Positions 291 to 9,859 of a stretch of DNA of 45,963 nucleotides are shown piece after piece; within the stretch, counting starts at the first letter, position 1; each line of letters starts with the position of its first letter. Position numbers and translations under genes: made by a program. The stretch is from an uncultured Granulicella sp. GTDB lineage: Bacteria > Acidobacteriota > Terriglobia > Terriglobales > Acidobacteriaceae. The DNA lies in assembly GCA_937871785.1 (NCBI GenBank), contig CALMON010000223.1:29987-75949 (forward strand). The letters run 5' to 3'. Under the pieces are notes generated by a model. The model ran no database searches. It was not told the DNA's origin and saw nothing but the letters and a program-made list of their open reading frames with translations.

Positions 291-1061
291 TCAGCAAGGC
301 AGCCTCATCGGCACGCCGCTCCGTGCCACCTCAGCCTTCAGGGCGCGCGAGTCGGTCACCCCAAAATGAAAGATGCTGGCGGCCAGCGCCGCATCCGCCT
401 TGCCTGCCGTGAACACCTCGGCGAAGTCCGCCGCGGAACCGGCGCCGCCGCTGGCGATGACGGGAATCTGCACGGCCTCGCTTACGGCGCGCGTTAGTTC
501 ACAGTCGAAGCCGTGCCGCATGCCGTCCGTGTCCATCGAGGTCAGCAGGATTTCACCGGCACCGCGCTGCTCGGCTTCCCGAGCCCAGTCGACCACGCGT
601 ATACCGGTCGCTTTGCGGCCGCCACTGACGTAGACTTCCGCATCGGCGACACCGGCGGGCCCGCGCCGGGCGTCGATGGCCACAATCACCGCTTGAGCGC
701 CGAAGCTGCCGCCGATTTCGCCAATCAGCTTCGGCCGCGCGATCGCCGAGGAGTTGATCGACACCTTGTCCGCTCCGGCATCGAAGACCGCCGCCGCATC
801 GTCCGCCGAGCGGATGCCTCCGCCGACGGTGAAAGGAACGAAAAGTGCCTCAGCCGTACGTTTCACAGTGTCGAGCAGCATTCCGCGGCCCTCGTGCGTT
901 GCGGTAATGTCGAGCAGCACAATTTCATCGGCGCCACCTCGCGCGTGACGATGGGCCAACTCGGCGGGGTCACCAGCGTCGATGATGCCGACGAACTGAA
1001 TGCCCTTCACGACACGGCCTCCGCGCACGTCCAGGCAGGCGATCACGCGTTTGGTCAGCAA
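291..1061 (-). CDS. hisF: HisF, imidazole glycerol phosphate synthase cyclase subunit
   Basis: [35 protein letters not shown]...; likely TTG start at 1061 overlapping the upstream stop (TTGCTGA). Confidence 0.95.
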
Positions 1062-1582
1062 GCGATGACACCGGCATTTTTCGCGTAGGCGCGGAACTTG
1101 TCCCACAGCGGTTCCTGCATGGCCCGCTTCGGAATCGTGTGAAAGGTAGCTTCTTTGACGAACACGACAAACACTTTCTCGTTATCGACGTAGTTGCTGA
1201 AGGCCGACCAGGGATAGGTGACCTGCGGTCCGTCCGGTACCGAAAAATGGACATTGCTGTCGTCAAATTCGCAATGCATGACTTTATCTTTTGAAAAGAG
1301 GGCACGGCTTTCAAACGCCTGGCGCACTTGCTCCTGATAGCGCACGGGCATGCCAATGGCCAGAGCGGCGGCGAGTATCGCAAAAAAAATCTTCCAAAAA
1401 TCCAGCGTTGTGTCTATCTTGACGAGCTCATAGCACAGCTTGGCCGCGATGCCCGCGCACACGATCGGCACAATCCAAACGTAGATCGCGTACCCTCGGC
1501 CTGCATTCTTGTGAACGCGACGGTTCGCCACGACCGCCGCGACGAAGTCCGGGTACGTAAAGGTGTAGTCGCAGCGAATCAT
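1055..1582 (-). CDS. YcxB-like membrane protein
   Basis: 175 aa, two hydrophobic segments followed by a YcxB-like C-terminal pattern ([35 protein letters not shown]). Confidence 0.6.
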
Positions 1583-2137: not shown

Positions 2138-2749
2138 CTAAAAATCCAGGAAGTTCTTCAGCACTTGCCGGCCGGTTTCAGCACTTTTTTCCGGGTGGAA
2201 CTGCACGCCCATCACGTTTCCGCGTTCGACGGCCCCTGTAAAGGCTCCGCCATACAACGTCACCGCTGCGGTGTCCGGCGAAACGGGCGCGCGCCACGAG
2301 TGCGTGTAATACACAAAGCTGCCCGGAGCGACCCCGCGCAACAGCCGCGAATCGCCGCGAATCTGTTCGAGCGAGTTCCAGCCGACATGCGGCGACTTCA
2401 GATCCTGCCCGTCGTAGATCGGGGGAAAGTGCTCGCACTCGCCCGTAAAGTGCCCGAGGCCCGGCACTTCGGGCGCCTCGGTTGACCCGGCATACAGCCA
2501 TTGCAGGCCGACACAGATGCCGAGCAGCGGCGTGCCGGCAGCAACGGCTTCGCGCGTCGCCTGCGTCAGGCCGAGGTCCTCGAGCAACTGCGTCGCGCGA
2601 AAGTGGCCGACACCTGGAAGGACGACCTTGTCGGCCCGCAGCACCTCATCGGGCGACTGCGTGACGCCAACATCGACCGCGCCCTGAAAGCGCAGCGCTT
2701 TGACGACGCTGGTCAGATTGCCTGCTTTGTAGTCGATGACGGCGATCAT
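2138..2749 (-). CDS. hisH: HisH, imidazole glycerol phosphate synthase glutaminase subunit
   Basis: MIAVIDYKAGNLTSVVKAL, PGVGHF, LLGICVGLQ, HPEKS motifs. Confidence 0.95.
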   Translation of the reverse strand: MIAVIDYKAGNLTSVVKALRFQGAVDVGVTQSPDEVLRADKVVLPGVGHFRATQLLEDLGLTQATREAVAAGTPLLGICVGLQWLYAGSTEAPEVPGLGHFTGECEHFPPIYDGQDLKSPHVGWNSLEQIRGDSRLLRGVAPGSFVYYTHSWRAPVSPDTAAVTLYGGAFTGAVERGNVMGVQFHPEKSAETGRQVLKNFLDF

Positions 2750-3156
2750 GCGTGTTCTGGCTCCTTTGTCCAGTCTTCGACTCGTAAGTCTTTGATCCGA
2801 CGAAAGACTGCATCATCAGTCGTTACGGTATGGTGGTGAGCCAACGCATGTGCCGCGATCATCGTGTCGAGATTGCTGGGCGGCGCGCCATCCTTCTCCT
2901 GCGTTGCCGTCAGACCAGCATACGCACGGGCGCAACGCGAGTTCCACGCCTTGACGGTGCTTCCATCGAGAAACTTTTCAACCAGCTCGTTCAGTCCCGT
3001 ATGCTGCGGCCTACGGGCGGCTTCATACCGCAGTTCCGGCTTTGTGATGGTGGAGAGTCGTAGGCTGTCCATCGGCGTATTCCGCACACGACTTTTCAGA
3101 GCGGGACTGGATCGTCTCAGCAGATAACTCACGATATTGGTGCTAAGCAGAAACAT
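2746..3156 (-). CDS. vapC: PIN-domain VapC-family protein, probable catalytic mutant
   Basis: MFLLSTNIVSYLL (canonical L-D-T-N-I-x-S-Y), TITKPELRYEA, NLDTMIAAHAL, RVEDW; 4-nt ATGA overlap with hisH. Confidence 0.85.
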   Translation of the reverse strand: MFLLSTNIVSYLLRRSSPALKSRVRNTPMDSLRLSTITKPELRYEAARRPQHTGLNELVEKFLDGSTVKAWNSRCARAYAGLTATQEKDGAPPSNLDTMIAAHALAHHHTVTTDDAVFRRIKDLRVEDWTKEPEHA

Positions 3157-4139: not shown

Positions 4140-4769
4140 TCACAAGAGCCCTTTCGTGCTCGGCAGCAACTCCCGCATCCGCTCGTCGCGGCTGCAAGCC
4201 CCGCGCATGGCGCGCGCGAAGGCTTTGAAGATAGCCTCGATCTTGTGGTGGTTGTTGCGGCCGTACATCGTTTTTACGTGGACATTCGCCTTGGCGCCGC
4301 GGGCGAAGCCGTCGAAGAAGTCCGGCACCAGTTCCGTCACCAGGTCGCCCACGACATGCGTGTTGAGCTGGTCGTCGACCACGCAGGCCACGCGGCCCGA
4401 AAGATCGACCGCCGCGACGGCCAGCGTTTCATCCATCGTCATTACGAAGTAGCCCGCGCGCAGGATGCCGCGCTTATCGCCGAGAGCCTCCGCGAACGCC
4501 TCGCCCAGCGCAATGCCGACGTCTTCGACCGTGTGGTGCTGGTCGACGTCGAGGTCGCCGACGCACTTCAGGCGCAGGTCGAACCCGCCATGCTTGGTGA
4601 AGCTTTCGAGCATGTGATCGAAGAAGCGGATGCCGGTCGACACGTCATAGGTTCCCTGGCCGTCGACATTCAGGCGCAGGGAAATCTTCGTTTCGAGGGT
4701 GTTCCGCTCAACGATGCCGATGCGTGCCGCGTCTCCCGCCGCGCTGGCGGCTTCCATATCGACGGTCAT
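4140..4769 (-). CDS. hisB: HisB, imidazoleglycerol-phosphate dehydratase
   Basis: [40 protein letters not shown]. Confidence 0.95.
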
Positions 4770-5002
4770 CGCGCCGCTCTCCCGTAGCGCGCGGTTTGGC
4801 GGCGCATCTGCATCAGCTTGACGAGGTTCATCATCACGTACGCCAGCAAAGCAGCCATGACGAGCGACCAGACAATCACGACTGCCGGCAAGGCGCGGCT
4901 TCCGTGAAAATGGTCTATCGCCAGAATGGCCGGCAACTGAAAACAGGCCACTGACGAAGCCAGAATTACAGTCTTTCGTTTCTGGGTCATCACACTACTC
5001 AT
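4766..5002 (-). CDS. Small membrane protein, hypothetical
   Basis: [64 protein letters not shown]...; 4-nt overlap with hisB. Confidence 0.55.
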
Positions 5003-6149
5003 ATTCGCGCTCCCCATCGCCGCGGCCCTGTGCCGGAACCGACTCCGCCGGGGTCCAGCCCACTTCAGTAAGCGACCCGCGCAAGGCCGCAAGACCGCGC
5101 GACACATGTTCTTCAGGCCCAATGGTAATACGCACGTAGCCGTCGCAGCCGGGGTCGGACGAGCGGTCGCGCAGCAGCACGCCGCGCTCGCGCATTGCGG
5201 CCACCAGGGCTGCGTGCTTTCGGCCGATGTCCATCAGCACGAAGTTTGCCGTGCTCGGCCAGTAGCGCACGCCCAGTTCGGCAAGCGCCGCGTACACGCG
5301 CTCGCGCCCGGTGTGGACCTGTGCCACATACCAGTCGAGGTAGGCCTGGTCGGCAAGAGCTTCGGGCAGCACAGCCAGCGCGATGCCGTTGACGTTGTAC
5401 GGCGAGCTCACCTTGCGCACATATTGCATCAGGCCGGAGTTGCCTGCGAGCATGCCGCAGCGCAGATTCGCGAGGCCGTACGCTTTTGAGAACGTGCGGC
5501 CGACAATCAGGTTCGGGATCGCCGGAACGTCGTCCATCGAGCTTTCACCGTGGAAATGGAAGTAGGCCTCGTCCGCGAAGACCACGGCGTGCGGCGCGGC
5601 GGCGCAAAGGGCTCGAATGTCTTCGCGGCTGACGCTCTGGCCGGTGGGGTTGTTCGGCGTGGCCACCATAATGAGCTTGGTGCGCGGCGTAACGGCAGCC
5701 AGAAAGCGCTCGCGCGGGAACAGGAAGCTGTCGTCGGCCTGCACGCGGATCAGGTTGCGCGTCATCATGCTGCAGCTAACGTCATACATAAAGAAGCTGG
5801 GCGTGCAGAGCAGCACTTCGTCGTCGGCGTCAAGAAACGCGCAGGCAAGCAGGTGGATGGCCTCGTCGACGCCGTTGGTCAGCAGCACTTCGTCGGGCTT
5901 CAGGCCGTAGTGCGCGGCCACCTGGATTTCCATCGGCTCGCGCTCCGGGTAAACGGTCAGGCCTTCGGCGGTGAGTTGCTGCAGCTTCGCAAAGACACGC
6001 GGGCTGGGCGCGAGGGTGTTTTCGTTGAAGTCCAGCCGCAGCATGGCGCGGCTGGCCAGTGGCGGGTGGTATTCCGGCATCGCCAGTACGGCCGCTCGCG
6101 GCTTGGGTTGTACGCCGACCACGTCTTCCATCGCTACAGGACTCATCAC
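4995..6149 (-). CDS. hisC: HisC, histidinol-phosphate aminotransferase
   Basis: LDFNENTLAPSP, TPNNPTG, DEAYFHF, GRTFSKAYGLANLRCG (PLP lysine) motifs. Confidence 0.93.
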   Translation of the reverse strand: MMSPVAMEDVVGVQPKPRAAVLAMPEYHPPLASRAMLRLDFNENTLAPSPRVFAKLQQLTAEGLTVYPEREPMEIQVAAHYGLKPDEVLLTNGVDEAIHLLACAFLDADDEVLLCTPSFFMYDVSCSMMTRNLIRVQADDSFLFPRERFLAAVTPRTKLIMVATPNNPTGQSVSREDIRALCAAAPHAVVFADEAYFHFHGESSMDDVPAIPNLIVGRTFSKAYGLANLRCGMLAGNSGLMQYVRKVSSPYNVNGIALAVLPEALADQAYLDWYVAQVHTGRERVYAALAELGVRYWPSTANFVLMDIGRKHAALVAAMRERGVLLRDRSSDPGCDGYVRITIGPEEHVSRGLAALRGSLTEVGWTPAESVPAQGRGDGEREYE

Positions 6150-6222: not shown

Positions 6223-7497
6223 CTATCTCATCCGTACGCGGACACTTTCAGCATGACCGACGAGACCTTCCGCTTCAGCCAGCGCTATCGTATGCGGCCC
6301 CACTTCGCGCAACGCCTCGCGCGTGTACTGCTGCACGGTAATCACCTTTACGAAGTCCATAACGCTCAGGCCGCCGCGCACCCGGCCGTTGCGTCCGGTC
6401 GGCAGCACATGGTTGGGCCCGGAAATGTAGTCGCCCATGGACTGCGGCGTGTGGTGCCCGATAAAGACCGACCCGGCGTTTTGCACCCAGCGCACGTCTG
6501 CGCCGGAGTCGACGGTGAGGTGCTCCGGGGCCAGCCGATTGGTGAGCTCCTGCGCGTCCGCAACGGTTTCCGTGACAAAGCAGAAACCCTGCGCGGCCAG
6601 CGACTGCTCGGCCAGCGCATTGCCTTTCGCCTGCCGCGCGACCTCGCTGGCCACCTGCTCGGCGAGCTCTCGGCGGCTCGTAATCAGCACGGCGAGAGCT
6701 TCGGGGTCATGCTCGGCCTGTGCGACCAGGTCGGCAGCGATGCCGACGGGGTCGCCGTGCTCGCTGGTCACGACAATCTCGGTCGGGCCGGCGGGCATGT
6801 CGATACCGCACTCGTGAGACACGGCGATCTTGGCGGCGGTGACATACAGGTTGCCGGGTCCGACAATCTTGTCGACCGCCGCCACCGTTTCCGTGCCGAA
6901 CGCCATAGCCGCGACGGCCTGTGCGCCGCCGATGCGGTACATTTCAAAGCTGCCTGCGGACTCCTGCGAAACCAGCCAGGCCGCCGCCATGGTTTCGCGT
7001 GCCGGCTTCGGCGAGCACACCACAATGCGCGGAACGCCGGCCACCTGCGCCGGGGTCACGGTCATCAACAGGGTCGAGGGCAGAGGATAGCGACCCCCCG
7101 GAACGTAGCAGCCAACCGAGCCGAGCGGCCGCACAATCTGCCCGACCTCCATGCCGGCCACCGGGCGGAAGCTGAACGCGCGCGGCAACTGCTTTTCCGC
7201 AAAGGCATGGATATTGGCCTGCGCCAGACGCATGGCCGCGCGCAGCTCGTCGCCGGTCGCGTCCCAGGCGGCCTGCATTTCCTCGGCTGTCACCCGGAGC
7301 GGCTGCTCGACCCCGAGCCCGTCGAAGCGCACGGCGTACTCGCGCACGCCCTCGTCGCCGCCCTGCCGAACCTCTGCGAGGATGGTGCGGACCGTCGCGT
7401 CGACGCGAGCCGTGTTGACCGAGCCGCGCAGCTCAAGCGAGCGAATGGCCGCTTCGGCGCTTTTGGCCTGCTCGCTATAAGTGTGGAGAATCTTCAT
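6223..7497 (-). CDS. hisD: HisD, histidinol dehydrogenase
   Basis: PGGRYPLPSTLLMTVTPAQVAGV, KIVGPGNLYVTAAK, DMPAGPTEIVV, QAEHDPEA motifs. Confidence 0.96.
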   Translation of the reverse strand: MKILHTYSEQAKSAEAAIRSLELRGSVNTARVDATVRTILAEVRQGGDEGVREYAVRFDGLGVEQPLRVTAEEMQAAWDATGDELRAAMRLAQANIHAFAEKQLPRAFSFRPVAGMEVGQIVRPLGSVGCYVPGGRYPLPSTLLMTVTPAQVAGVPRIVVCSPKPARETMAAAWLVSQESAGSFEMYRIGGAQAVAAMAFGTETVAAVDKIVGPGNLYVTAAKIAVSHECGIDMPAGPTEIVVTSEHGDPVGIAADLVAQAEHDPEALAVLITSRRELAEQVASEVARQAKGNALAEQSLAAQGFCFVTETVADAQELTNRLAPEHLTVDSGADVRWVQNAGSVFIGHHTPQSMGDYISGPNHVLPTGRNGRVRGGLSVMDFVKVITVQQYTREALREVGPHTIALAEAEGLVGHAESVRVRMR

Positions 7498-7944: not shown

Positions 7945-8820
7945 CTACAGCACAACCTTGCTCAAGGGATACTCGACGATGCCGGTTCCGCCGGCAGCCT
8001 TCAGCTTGGGGATCACATCGCGCACCAGCGAATGGTCGAGGATGGTGTTCAGGGCCACCCAGTCCGGGTTTTGCAGGTGCGAGATCGTCGGGCTGTTCAG
8101 CGCGGGCAGCACGGCGACAATCTTGTCCAGATCGGCTTTGCGCGCGTTCAGCATCAACCCCACCTGCACCTGCGCGGCCATGGCGCCGTTCAGCATCAGG
8201 CTTAGCGTTTCAATTTTCGAGCGCTTCCAATTGTCGGCCCAGGCAGTCTTGTTTGCGATCAACTGAGTTTCGCTTTCCATCAGCGTTTCAATGATGCGCA
8301 GCCGGTTGGCGCGCAGGCTGCTTCCGGTTTCGGTCACCTCGACGATCGCATCGGCCAGCGTCGGCGGCTTCACTTCGGTCGCGCCCCAGCTAAACTCCAC
8401 CTTCACGGGGATGTTCTTGCTGGCAAAATAACGCTTCGAAAACTCGACCAACTCGGTCGCGATCGTCTTGCCGGCCAGGTCTTCCGGCTTTTGAAAAGGC
8501 GAGTCTTCCGGAACCGCCAGCACCCACTTCACGCGCGTGCGGCTGGCCTTGGAGTAGGTAAGCGACGTCACCCGCTCCACATCGCTCTGGTTTTCGAGCA
8601 CCCAGTCGTTGCCGGTCAGCCCGGCGTCGAGCGCGCCGTGCTCCACGTAGCGCGCCATTTCCTGCGCGCGCACCAGCATGCACTCGATTTCCGGGTCGTC
8701 GATGGTGGGGAAGTAGCTGCGCCCACTCGCGCCTATGCGCCAACCGGCGCGTTCAAACAGGGCGATCGTGGCGTCCTGCAGACTGCCCTTCGGGATTCCC
8801 AGCTTCAGTACCTGACTCAT
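7945..8820 (-). CDS. hisG: HisG, ATP phosphoribosyltransferase (long form)
   Basis: [21 protein letters not shown]..., [26 protein letters not shown]. Confidence 0.94.
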
Positions 8821-8867: not shown

Positions 8868-9230
8868 TTATACCGCGATGCCTTTGTAGAAGCAGCTCAC
8901 CTTACCTTCGTGGCAGGTCAACCCGTCGCCTTCGACCACGACTTTGAACAACAGCGCGTCGCTGTCGCAGTCGGTCGCCATTTCGACGATGCGCAAGCGA
9001 TTGCCGCTGCTTTCGCCCTTCATCCATAGCTTCTTGCGGGTTCTGGACCAGAAGGTTACAAAGCCGCTTTCCTGGGTCTTCGCCCAGCTTTCCTCGTTTA
9101 GGAAGCCAAGCATCAGGACTTCGCCGCTCCCGGCATCCTGCACAATGCCGGCCACCATGCCGCCGTCCTTGGCGAAGTCGAGCTTTATGGCTTCCGTGTT
9201 GCTTGCCGTAGCTGTACCCGCGTTCGTCAT
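8868..9230 (-). CDS. hisI: HisI, phosphoribosyl-AMP cyclohydrolase
   Basis: [63 protein letters not shown] upstream. Confidence 0.95.
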
Positions 9231-9280
9231 GATCTTCCTCCGCGCTGCCCGTTTCCGCTTTGCCCCGTCCGTCGCGCAGC

Positions 9281-9320
9281 AAAACGCCCGCTCGCGGCTC
9301 TGGGCGCGTCAGCGGGCTTG
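9281..9320 (-). terminator. Attenuator terminator of the his leader
   Basis: Minus strand: GCCCGCT GA CGCG CCCAGAGC CGCG AGCGGGC then GTTTTG. Confidence 0.75.
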
Positions 9321-9345
9321 TTGTCGAATCCTGTTGTGCGTCTTG

Positions 9346-9429
9346 CTACTTCGCCAAACCGGACACAGCCGCCGCTACGCTTCGCGCATGGTGGTTATGG
9401 TGTCCGTGGTGATGCCGCAGCCTGCTCAT
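9346..9429 (-). CDS. hisL: Putative his operon leader peptide: MSRLRHHHGHHNHHARSVAAAVSGLAK
   Basis: Manual codon-by-codon translation; 7 His codons within 9 consecutive codons, stop TAG at 9346-9348, upstream of terminator and hisI. Confidence 0.85.
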   Translation of the reverse strand: MSRLRHHHGHHNHHARSVAAAVSGLAK

Positions 9430-9437
9430 TGAGTTCT

Positions 9438-9466
9438 ACGCTACCGTCCTCCGGCGCGGCTGTCAA
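9438..9466 (-). promoter_or_regulatory. Putative sigma70-type promoter of the his operon
   Basis: TTGACA (9461-9466) - 17 bp - TAGCGT (9438-9443) on the minus strand, directly upstream of hisL. Confidence 0.55.
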
Positions 9467-9598: not shown

Positions 9599-9859
9599 AT
9601 GCCAGATATGCGCGTACAAGCCGGAGAAGCTCAGGAAGATCAAGTCACAGCGTCCATCGAGAAGTACACGTCGCAGGTTCCGTCCAGCGTTTACCTGGCC
9701 CTTGCGGGTGCCTCGATTCTTGGTTCAGTTGCTTTCAAAATTGCCAAGAAGGGCGAAGAAGCTCTGTTCGTCGGCCAATGGGTAGCCCCGTTCCTTTTGC
9801 TCGGTATCTATAACAAGATGGTGAAGCAGCATGGCTCCGACGCCGCGACCCGCAGCTAG
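9599..9859 (+). CDS. Small membrane protein, hypothetical
   Basis: 86 aa; SD-like gaggag upstream; central hydrophobic segments. Confidence 0.6.
   Translation: MPDMRVQAGEAQEDQVTASIEKYTSQVPSSVYLALAGASILGSVAFKIAKKGEEALFVGQWVAPFLLLGIYNKMVKQHGSDAATRS

Follow-up and report, generated by a model that had tools for sequence, protein, structure and literature searches.

In the enterobacterial his attenuator (hisL; RF00514), a short ORF with a run of His codons, mutually exclusive hairpins, and a terminator precede the first his gene. Attenuators of his genes have been described in Proteobacteria and predicted in several Firmicutes (PMC9413887, PMC2965389). The Firmicutes predictions include leaders in the Bacillus cereus group, Peptostreptococcaceae, and Erysipelotrichales (PMC9413887) as well as hisS/hisZ leaders (PMC2965389). 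Leader peptides whose AUG lies at the 5′ end of the mRNA, and in which an amino-acid run senses tRNA charging, are known as trpL of Sinorhizobium meliloti (PMC7298713), as leuL, trpL, and ilvL of Streptomyces (PMC8079986), and as leaderless polycysteine ORFs of mycobacteria (cited in PMC9031893). For Acidobacteria, leaderless genes were predicted at 9.7–19.4% in three genomes (PMC3160421), and the predicted attenuators of the phylum have almost no assigned function according to PMC2965389. No his attenuator of Acidobacteria was found in the open-access papers searched, although an earlier mention is possible, e.g. in the surveys of the Seliverstov/Lyubetsky group.

The locus described here lies in a stretch of 45,963 nt (the window). 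As judged by comparison with its relatives, it carries, with a probability of about 93%, a ribosome-mediated attenuator that controls transcription of the his operon. The leader has the features listed above for hisL and is predicted to work like the hisL attenuators without being a member of Rfam RF00514. That family gave no gathering-score match in the window or in 20 relatives, and it was absent among the matches to E = 10. In contrast to hisL, the acidobacterial operon starts with hisI rather than hisG, its leader lacks a Shine-Dalgarno sequence, with the start codon predicted at or close to the mRNA 5′ end, and the 5′ arm of the antiterminator (strand 2) lies inside the ORF. The Firmicutes leaders are similar in that a predicted His leader peptide, terminator, and antiterminator stand before his genes outside the Proteobacteria. 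They differ in phylum and in having 3–5 consecutive His codons, and no leaderless start is mentioned in the excerpts of PMC9413887 and PMC2965389; the resemblance of their RNAs to the acidobacterial leader is one of design. The leaders of Sinorhizobium, Streptomyces, and mycobacteria, in turn, sense Trp, Leu, Ile/Val, or Cys and belong to Proteobacteria and Actinobacteria. Attenuation of his genes is classic elsewhere; here, its design is conserved across an acidobacterial class, for which no published description was found.

The leader ORF, its operon, and its promoter

The leader ORF (MSRLRHHHGHHNHHARSVAAAVSGLAK, followed by a stop codon; 9346..9429, minus strand) was delineated by its translation, class-wide conservation, a shuffle test, and codon-position variation. 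The translation given in the earlier note, from the ATG at 9429 to 9346, was matched exactly. The regulatory run, HHHGHHNHH, occupies codons 6–14 (9388..9414, minus strand) and features seven His codons in nine, with varying third positions. Dinucleotide shuffling of the 300-nt region ahead of hisI, repeated 2000 times, produced no frame with five or more His residues in nine codons. This density was reached at 46 of 50 loci, compared to 0.02 expected from shuffles.

A His-rich leader ORF precedes hisI at 60 of the 62 examined loci of the class (48/50, plus 12/12 further family members); the locus L003 (G017) is among those carrying it. The two class members with no His leader before hisI are L047 (G053) and L050 (G058); the first gene in G058 is one other than hisI. 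In other classes of the phylum, a His-rich ORF was located before hisI or hisG in 3 of 20 genomes (L175, L178, and L179). The conservation of the His run and hairpins had been set beforehand as decisive, and both the run and the two alternative pairings described below are kept throughout the class. Among the relatives retrieved with the HisI sequence are Granulicella paludicola, Bryocella elongata, and Acidobacteriaceae MAGs; the source organism, previously called a probable acidobacterium, is therefore one. Another locus, L051 (CAJCIP010000077.1), is titled Verrucomicrobia bacterium Tous-C9LFEB, and its HisI is 82% identical to that of the window; this record is probably a mislabeled acidobacterial MAG.

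As had been noted, hisI lies downstream of the leader and terminator on the same strand, starting at 9230. It is the first gene of the operon (8868..9230), followed on the minus strand by hisG (7945..8820), hisD (6223..7497), hisC (4995..6149), hisB (4140..4769), hisH (2138..2749), and hisF (291..1106). The hisA gene is found just outside the window, with matches at and immediately left of the window start (G000:C223:29546-30216). Its match there is split into two pieces that lie in different frames, owing to either a frameshift or an error in the assembly. A gene for a PIN-domain (VapC-like) protein (2746–3156, minus strand) lies between hisB and hisH inside the his cluster.

Upstream of the ORF, a −35 element (TTGACA, 9461..9466, minus strand) and a −10 element (TAGCGT, 9438..9443, minus strand) are separated by a 17-nt spacer, and the latter ends 8 nt before the ATG. 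Most leaders share this geometry: a −35/−10 pair ending 2–14 nt (mode 8–9) before the leader start was present in 53 of 63 leaders, while 2.0 were expected in shuffles. When the leaders were compared, no enrichment of a Shine-Dalgarno sequence before the leader ATG over shuffles was detected; in the window, a GGAGGA resembling a ribosome-binding site, some 17 nt ahead of the ATG, falls inside the promoter spacer. With a transcription start 6–8 nt past the −10 element, the 5′ UTR would be 0–3 nt. The leader mRNA thus appears to be leaderless or nearly so, with a predicted start within about 0–3 nt of the ATG. Single-sequence scanning found no promoter in this region, as 4/6 matches per hexamer were required and TAGCGT has three. 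The same scan flagged no terminator on the minus strand, because the loop exceeds the allowed length. Comparative scans across the leaders were used in place of both.

Competing pairings in the leader RNA

The terminator hairpin (9286..9317, minus strand; called from the consensus fold) is formed by GCCCGCT (9317–9311; within strand 3) and AGCGGGC (9292–9286; strand 4) with an inner CGCG/CGCG pairing, and it is followed by a U-rich tail, GTTTTG (9280..9285, minus strand). This hairpin before hisI had been pointed out earlier and is present in the window sequence as described. The window's own U-tract is short; most relatives have TTTTT. A hairpin with a T-rich tail follows the leader in 48 of 48 leaders tested, which argues against translation attenuation, wherein the downstream hairpin would hide the ribosome-binding site of hisI and transcription would not be ended. 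Such a replacement of the terminator is found in some known attenuators (PMC9413887). However, the spacing between the hairpin and the hisI match ranges from about 7 to 151 nt, so the hairpin cannot generally cover the hisI start site, and this form of control is very unlikely here.

Strand 2 (GCGTAGCGGCGGCTGTGT; 9363..9380, minus strand) is the 5′ arm of the antiterminator and is located inside the ORF; strand 3 (9304..9321, minus strand) is the 3′ arm and includes the terminator 5′ strand. Both were delimited by duplex prediction, swap tests, and RNAalifold. The pairing of 9380–9367 with 9318–9306 that had been proposed does exist, and the best duplex is longer (9380–9363 with 9321–9304; 15 pairs, −20.4 kcal/mol). 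When untranslated, the His-codon region (strand 1; 9389..9422, minus strand; identified by the swap test) can pair with strand 2. The core of this 1:2 helix is GGACAC with GTGTCC (9405–9400 with 9366–9361, minus strand).

Swap tests were carried out with 24 divergent leaders. For 2:3, the leaders' own pairings scored −562.4 compared to −496.1 ± 15.6 for permuted ones, with 0 of 20000 permutations as good; with slightly different strand ends, 2 of 100000 were. For 1:2, the corresponding scores were −592.6 and −507.6 ± 16.5 (0 of 20000 as good). Reversed-strand composition controls yielded no signal (z = +0.97 and +0.03), nor did the unexpected 1:3 pairing (z = +0.68), and the result was unchanged in a 19-leader subset. 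These permutations used no tree model, and they are conservative because swaps between near relatives were included. By this measure, the segment after the His run coevolves with both the terminator 5′ strand (2:3) and the His-codon region (1:2). An example is L034, in which the ORF segment GTCAGCGG has two possible partners: CCGCTGAC ahead of the His codons and CCGCTGAC within the terminator.

Codon-position variation was examined in 18 gap-free leaders of the genus. In the His run it was 0.04/0.15/0.44 at positions 1/2/3, whereas in the seven codons after the run it was nearly equal at all positions (0.18/0.24/0.26). A free third base with positions 1 and 2 kept is the pattern expected if the amino acid matters, and constraint at all three positions is that expected if the RNA matters. 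The contrast is indicative of selection on the His codons, as expected of a translated leader ORF. Constraint on third positions after the run also speaks against a functional His-rich small protein (e.g. one that binds metal) that the terminator merely separates from hisI. The C-terminal AAVSGxAK is well conserved in the family, and Sinorhizobium offers a precedent for leader peptides with activity in trans (PMC7298713), both of which would suit such a protein; yet the sequence of strand 2 differs completely between families while its pairing to strands 1 and 3 is kept, and the ORF sits before his genes in the loci examined. A small protein is very unlikely.

A T-box or riboswitch, or a terminator belonging to an upstream gene, may be considered because T-box control of his operons is known in Firmicutes and Actinobacteria (PMC9413887). 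It is hardly credible: no Rfam family reached its gathering score in the window or in any of 20 relatives. In addition, the first candidate gene upstream (ORF 9599–9859) is encoded on the other strand, and the hairpin sits between the promoter and hisI.

RNAalifold returned only the terminator, and not the antiterminator, when the whole alignment was supplied; once the 3′ strand was omitted, a 13-bp antiterminator was obtained. In the genus, the antiterminator was 89.9% paired, compared to 29–50% for slid versions. Column-wise covariation of the antiterminator within the genus was weak and short of significance, since the columns vary little; the between-family swap tests were therefore used. 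Folded on its own, the leader in the window did not outperform shuffled sequence (z ≈ 0, 0.6, and −0.9), and significance comes from the comparison with relatives. Those folds, and the presence of CAYCAYCAYNNNCAYCAY three times in the genome, would suit a chance origin, in which a genome of high GC content happens to contain a His-rich frame together with GC-rich inverted repeats; given the conservation across the class and the coevolving strands, this is very unlikely.

Proposed mechanism

On this comparative evidence, the leader is predicted to have a complete 1:2 / 2:3 / 3:4 design that is conserved in one class and present in others of the phylum. Very probably, the his genes would be switched on only when histidine is short, by way of the leader ORF and three competing hairpins. 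We infer a scheme that runs from transcription start through translation, stalling, and termination to the histidine response. RNA polymerase would start at, or a few bases from, the leader AUG, so that ribosome loading at the 5′ end would not require a Shine-Dalgarno sequence. When charged His-tRNA is scarce, the ribosome would stall in the His run and cover strand 1. Strand 2 would then be free to pair with strand 3 once the latter is made; because strand 3 includes the terminator 5′ strand, this would keep the terminator from forming in time, and hisI onward would be transcribed. When His-tRNA is plentiful, the ribosome would cross strand 2 to the stop codon during synthesis of strands 3 and 4, and 3:4 would end transcription. 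In an untranslated leader, 1:2 would form and leave strand 3 for strand 4.

Folding was consistent with the early steps of this scheme. With a ribosome on the His codons and strand 4 absent, the mean pairing probability of 2:3 exceeded 0.5 in 46 of 48 leaders. For the window, again without strand 4, this probability was 0.73 with the ribosome on the His codons and 0.05 without a ribosome, the latter because 1:2 forms. In a control in which the order of the post-His codons was shuffled, the 2:3 mean was 0.59 compared to 0.73 observed and was lower at 43 of 48 loci; the antiterminator probability of 0 in the “stop” state is so by construction. Equilibrium folding of whole leaders with the ribosome at different codons gave no switching, with the terminator winning in nearly all states, and pairing was therefore examined at the stage before strand 4 is made. 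Since the terminator wins at equilibrium, the switch would have to be kinetic.

The rear edge of a ribosome lies 15 nt upstream of its P site. With this value, a ribosome at the leader stop reaches upstream to about 9366. The stop codon follows strand 2 by a median of 18 nt in the genus and 5 nt in other families. The earlier claim that a ribosome at the stop covers 9380–9367 therefore stands for other families and most of the class, but in the genus the ribosome only abuts strand 2 and coverage is marginal. In the genus, masking would come mainly from the ribosome in transit. Downstream of the leader stop (9346) and ahead of the terminator (9317) lies an AGGAT(T) or GAGAT(T) motif that much of the family has kept; it may base-pair with the GTCC that ends strand 2 or serve some other function.

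The translation-coupled his attenuation proposed in the earlier note was largely right, supported as it is by the conserved His run and both pairings. Two points are corrected: the coverage at the stop codon, and the omission of the third helix (1:2, in which strand 1 comes from the His-codon region) and of the probable leaderless start.

Cysteine leaders and the wider pattern

Two genomes were searched for the same promoter-to-AUG geometry. The His leader was recovered in both, along with Cys-rich leaders. A Cys-rich, putatively leaderless ORF (MTSPFRIAACCPAAGAGVCVAAR and relatives), followed by a terminator, precedes a gene for a NirA-like sulfite/nitrite reductase (L211, L224–L250; G000:C246:10542 and its homologues in the genus). 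Of 28 loci in the genus, at least 17 keep this Cys leader ahead of the NirA-like gene, together with a GTGCCCACGA...TCGTGGGC-TTTT hairpin. It is a probable cysteine attenuator, parallel to the mycobacterial polycysteine leaders. Further Cys-rich, putatively leaderless ORFs, L207 (G000:C181:6442-6482, minus strand; MTQTRTAAANCCMCCCTCPRALRCCVCLCCR) and L216 (G002:C1:1259332-1259372, minus strand; MKQIHTAALCCMCCRMPRCCAGVCLL), are situated about 360–400 nt before a YeiH-like membrane protein, and L216 shows a hairpin with a TTTT tail. The names NirA-like and YeiH-like were assigned by sequence inspection, not by family search.

The balance leans modestly toward a broader arrangement in which Acidobacteriota control several amino-acid pathways via leaderless leaders sensitive to tRNA charging (in the genus, His for the his operon; Cys for the NirA-like gene and perhaps the YeiH-like one). 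If this is true, leaderless attenuation would be ancient in the class and form a general layer of its regulation. The his attenuator itself would assign a role to a conserved leader of a large and poorly studied phylum and would imply tight coupling of transcription and translation in Acidobacteriota. It would also provide a natural system in which ribosome loading at a leaderless AUG is early enough for control of a terminator. Sequence-unrelated attenuation of his genes in Proteobacteria, Firmicutes, and now, very probably, Acidobacteriota is relevant to the question of repeated origins of the mechanism.
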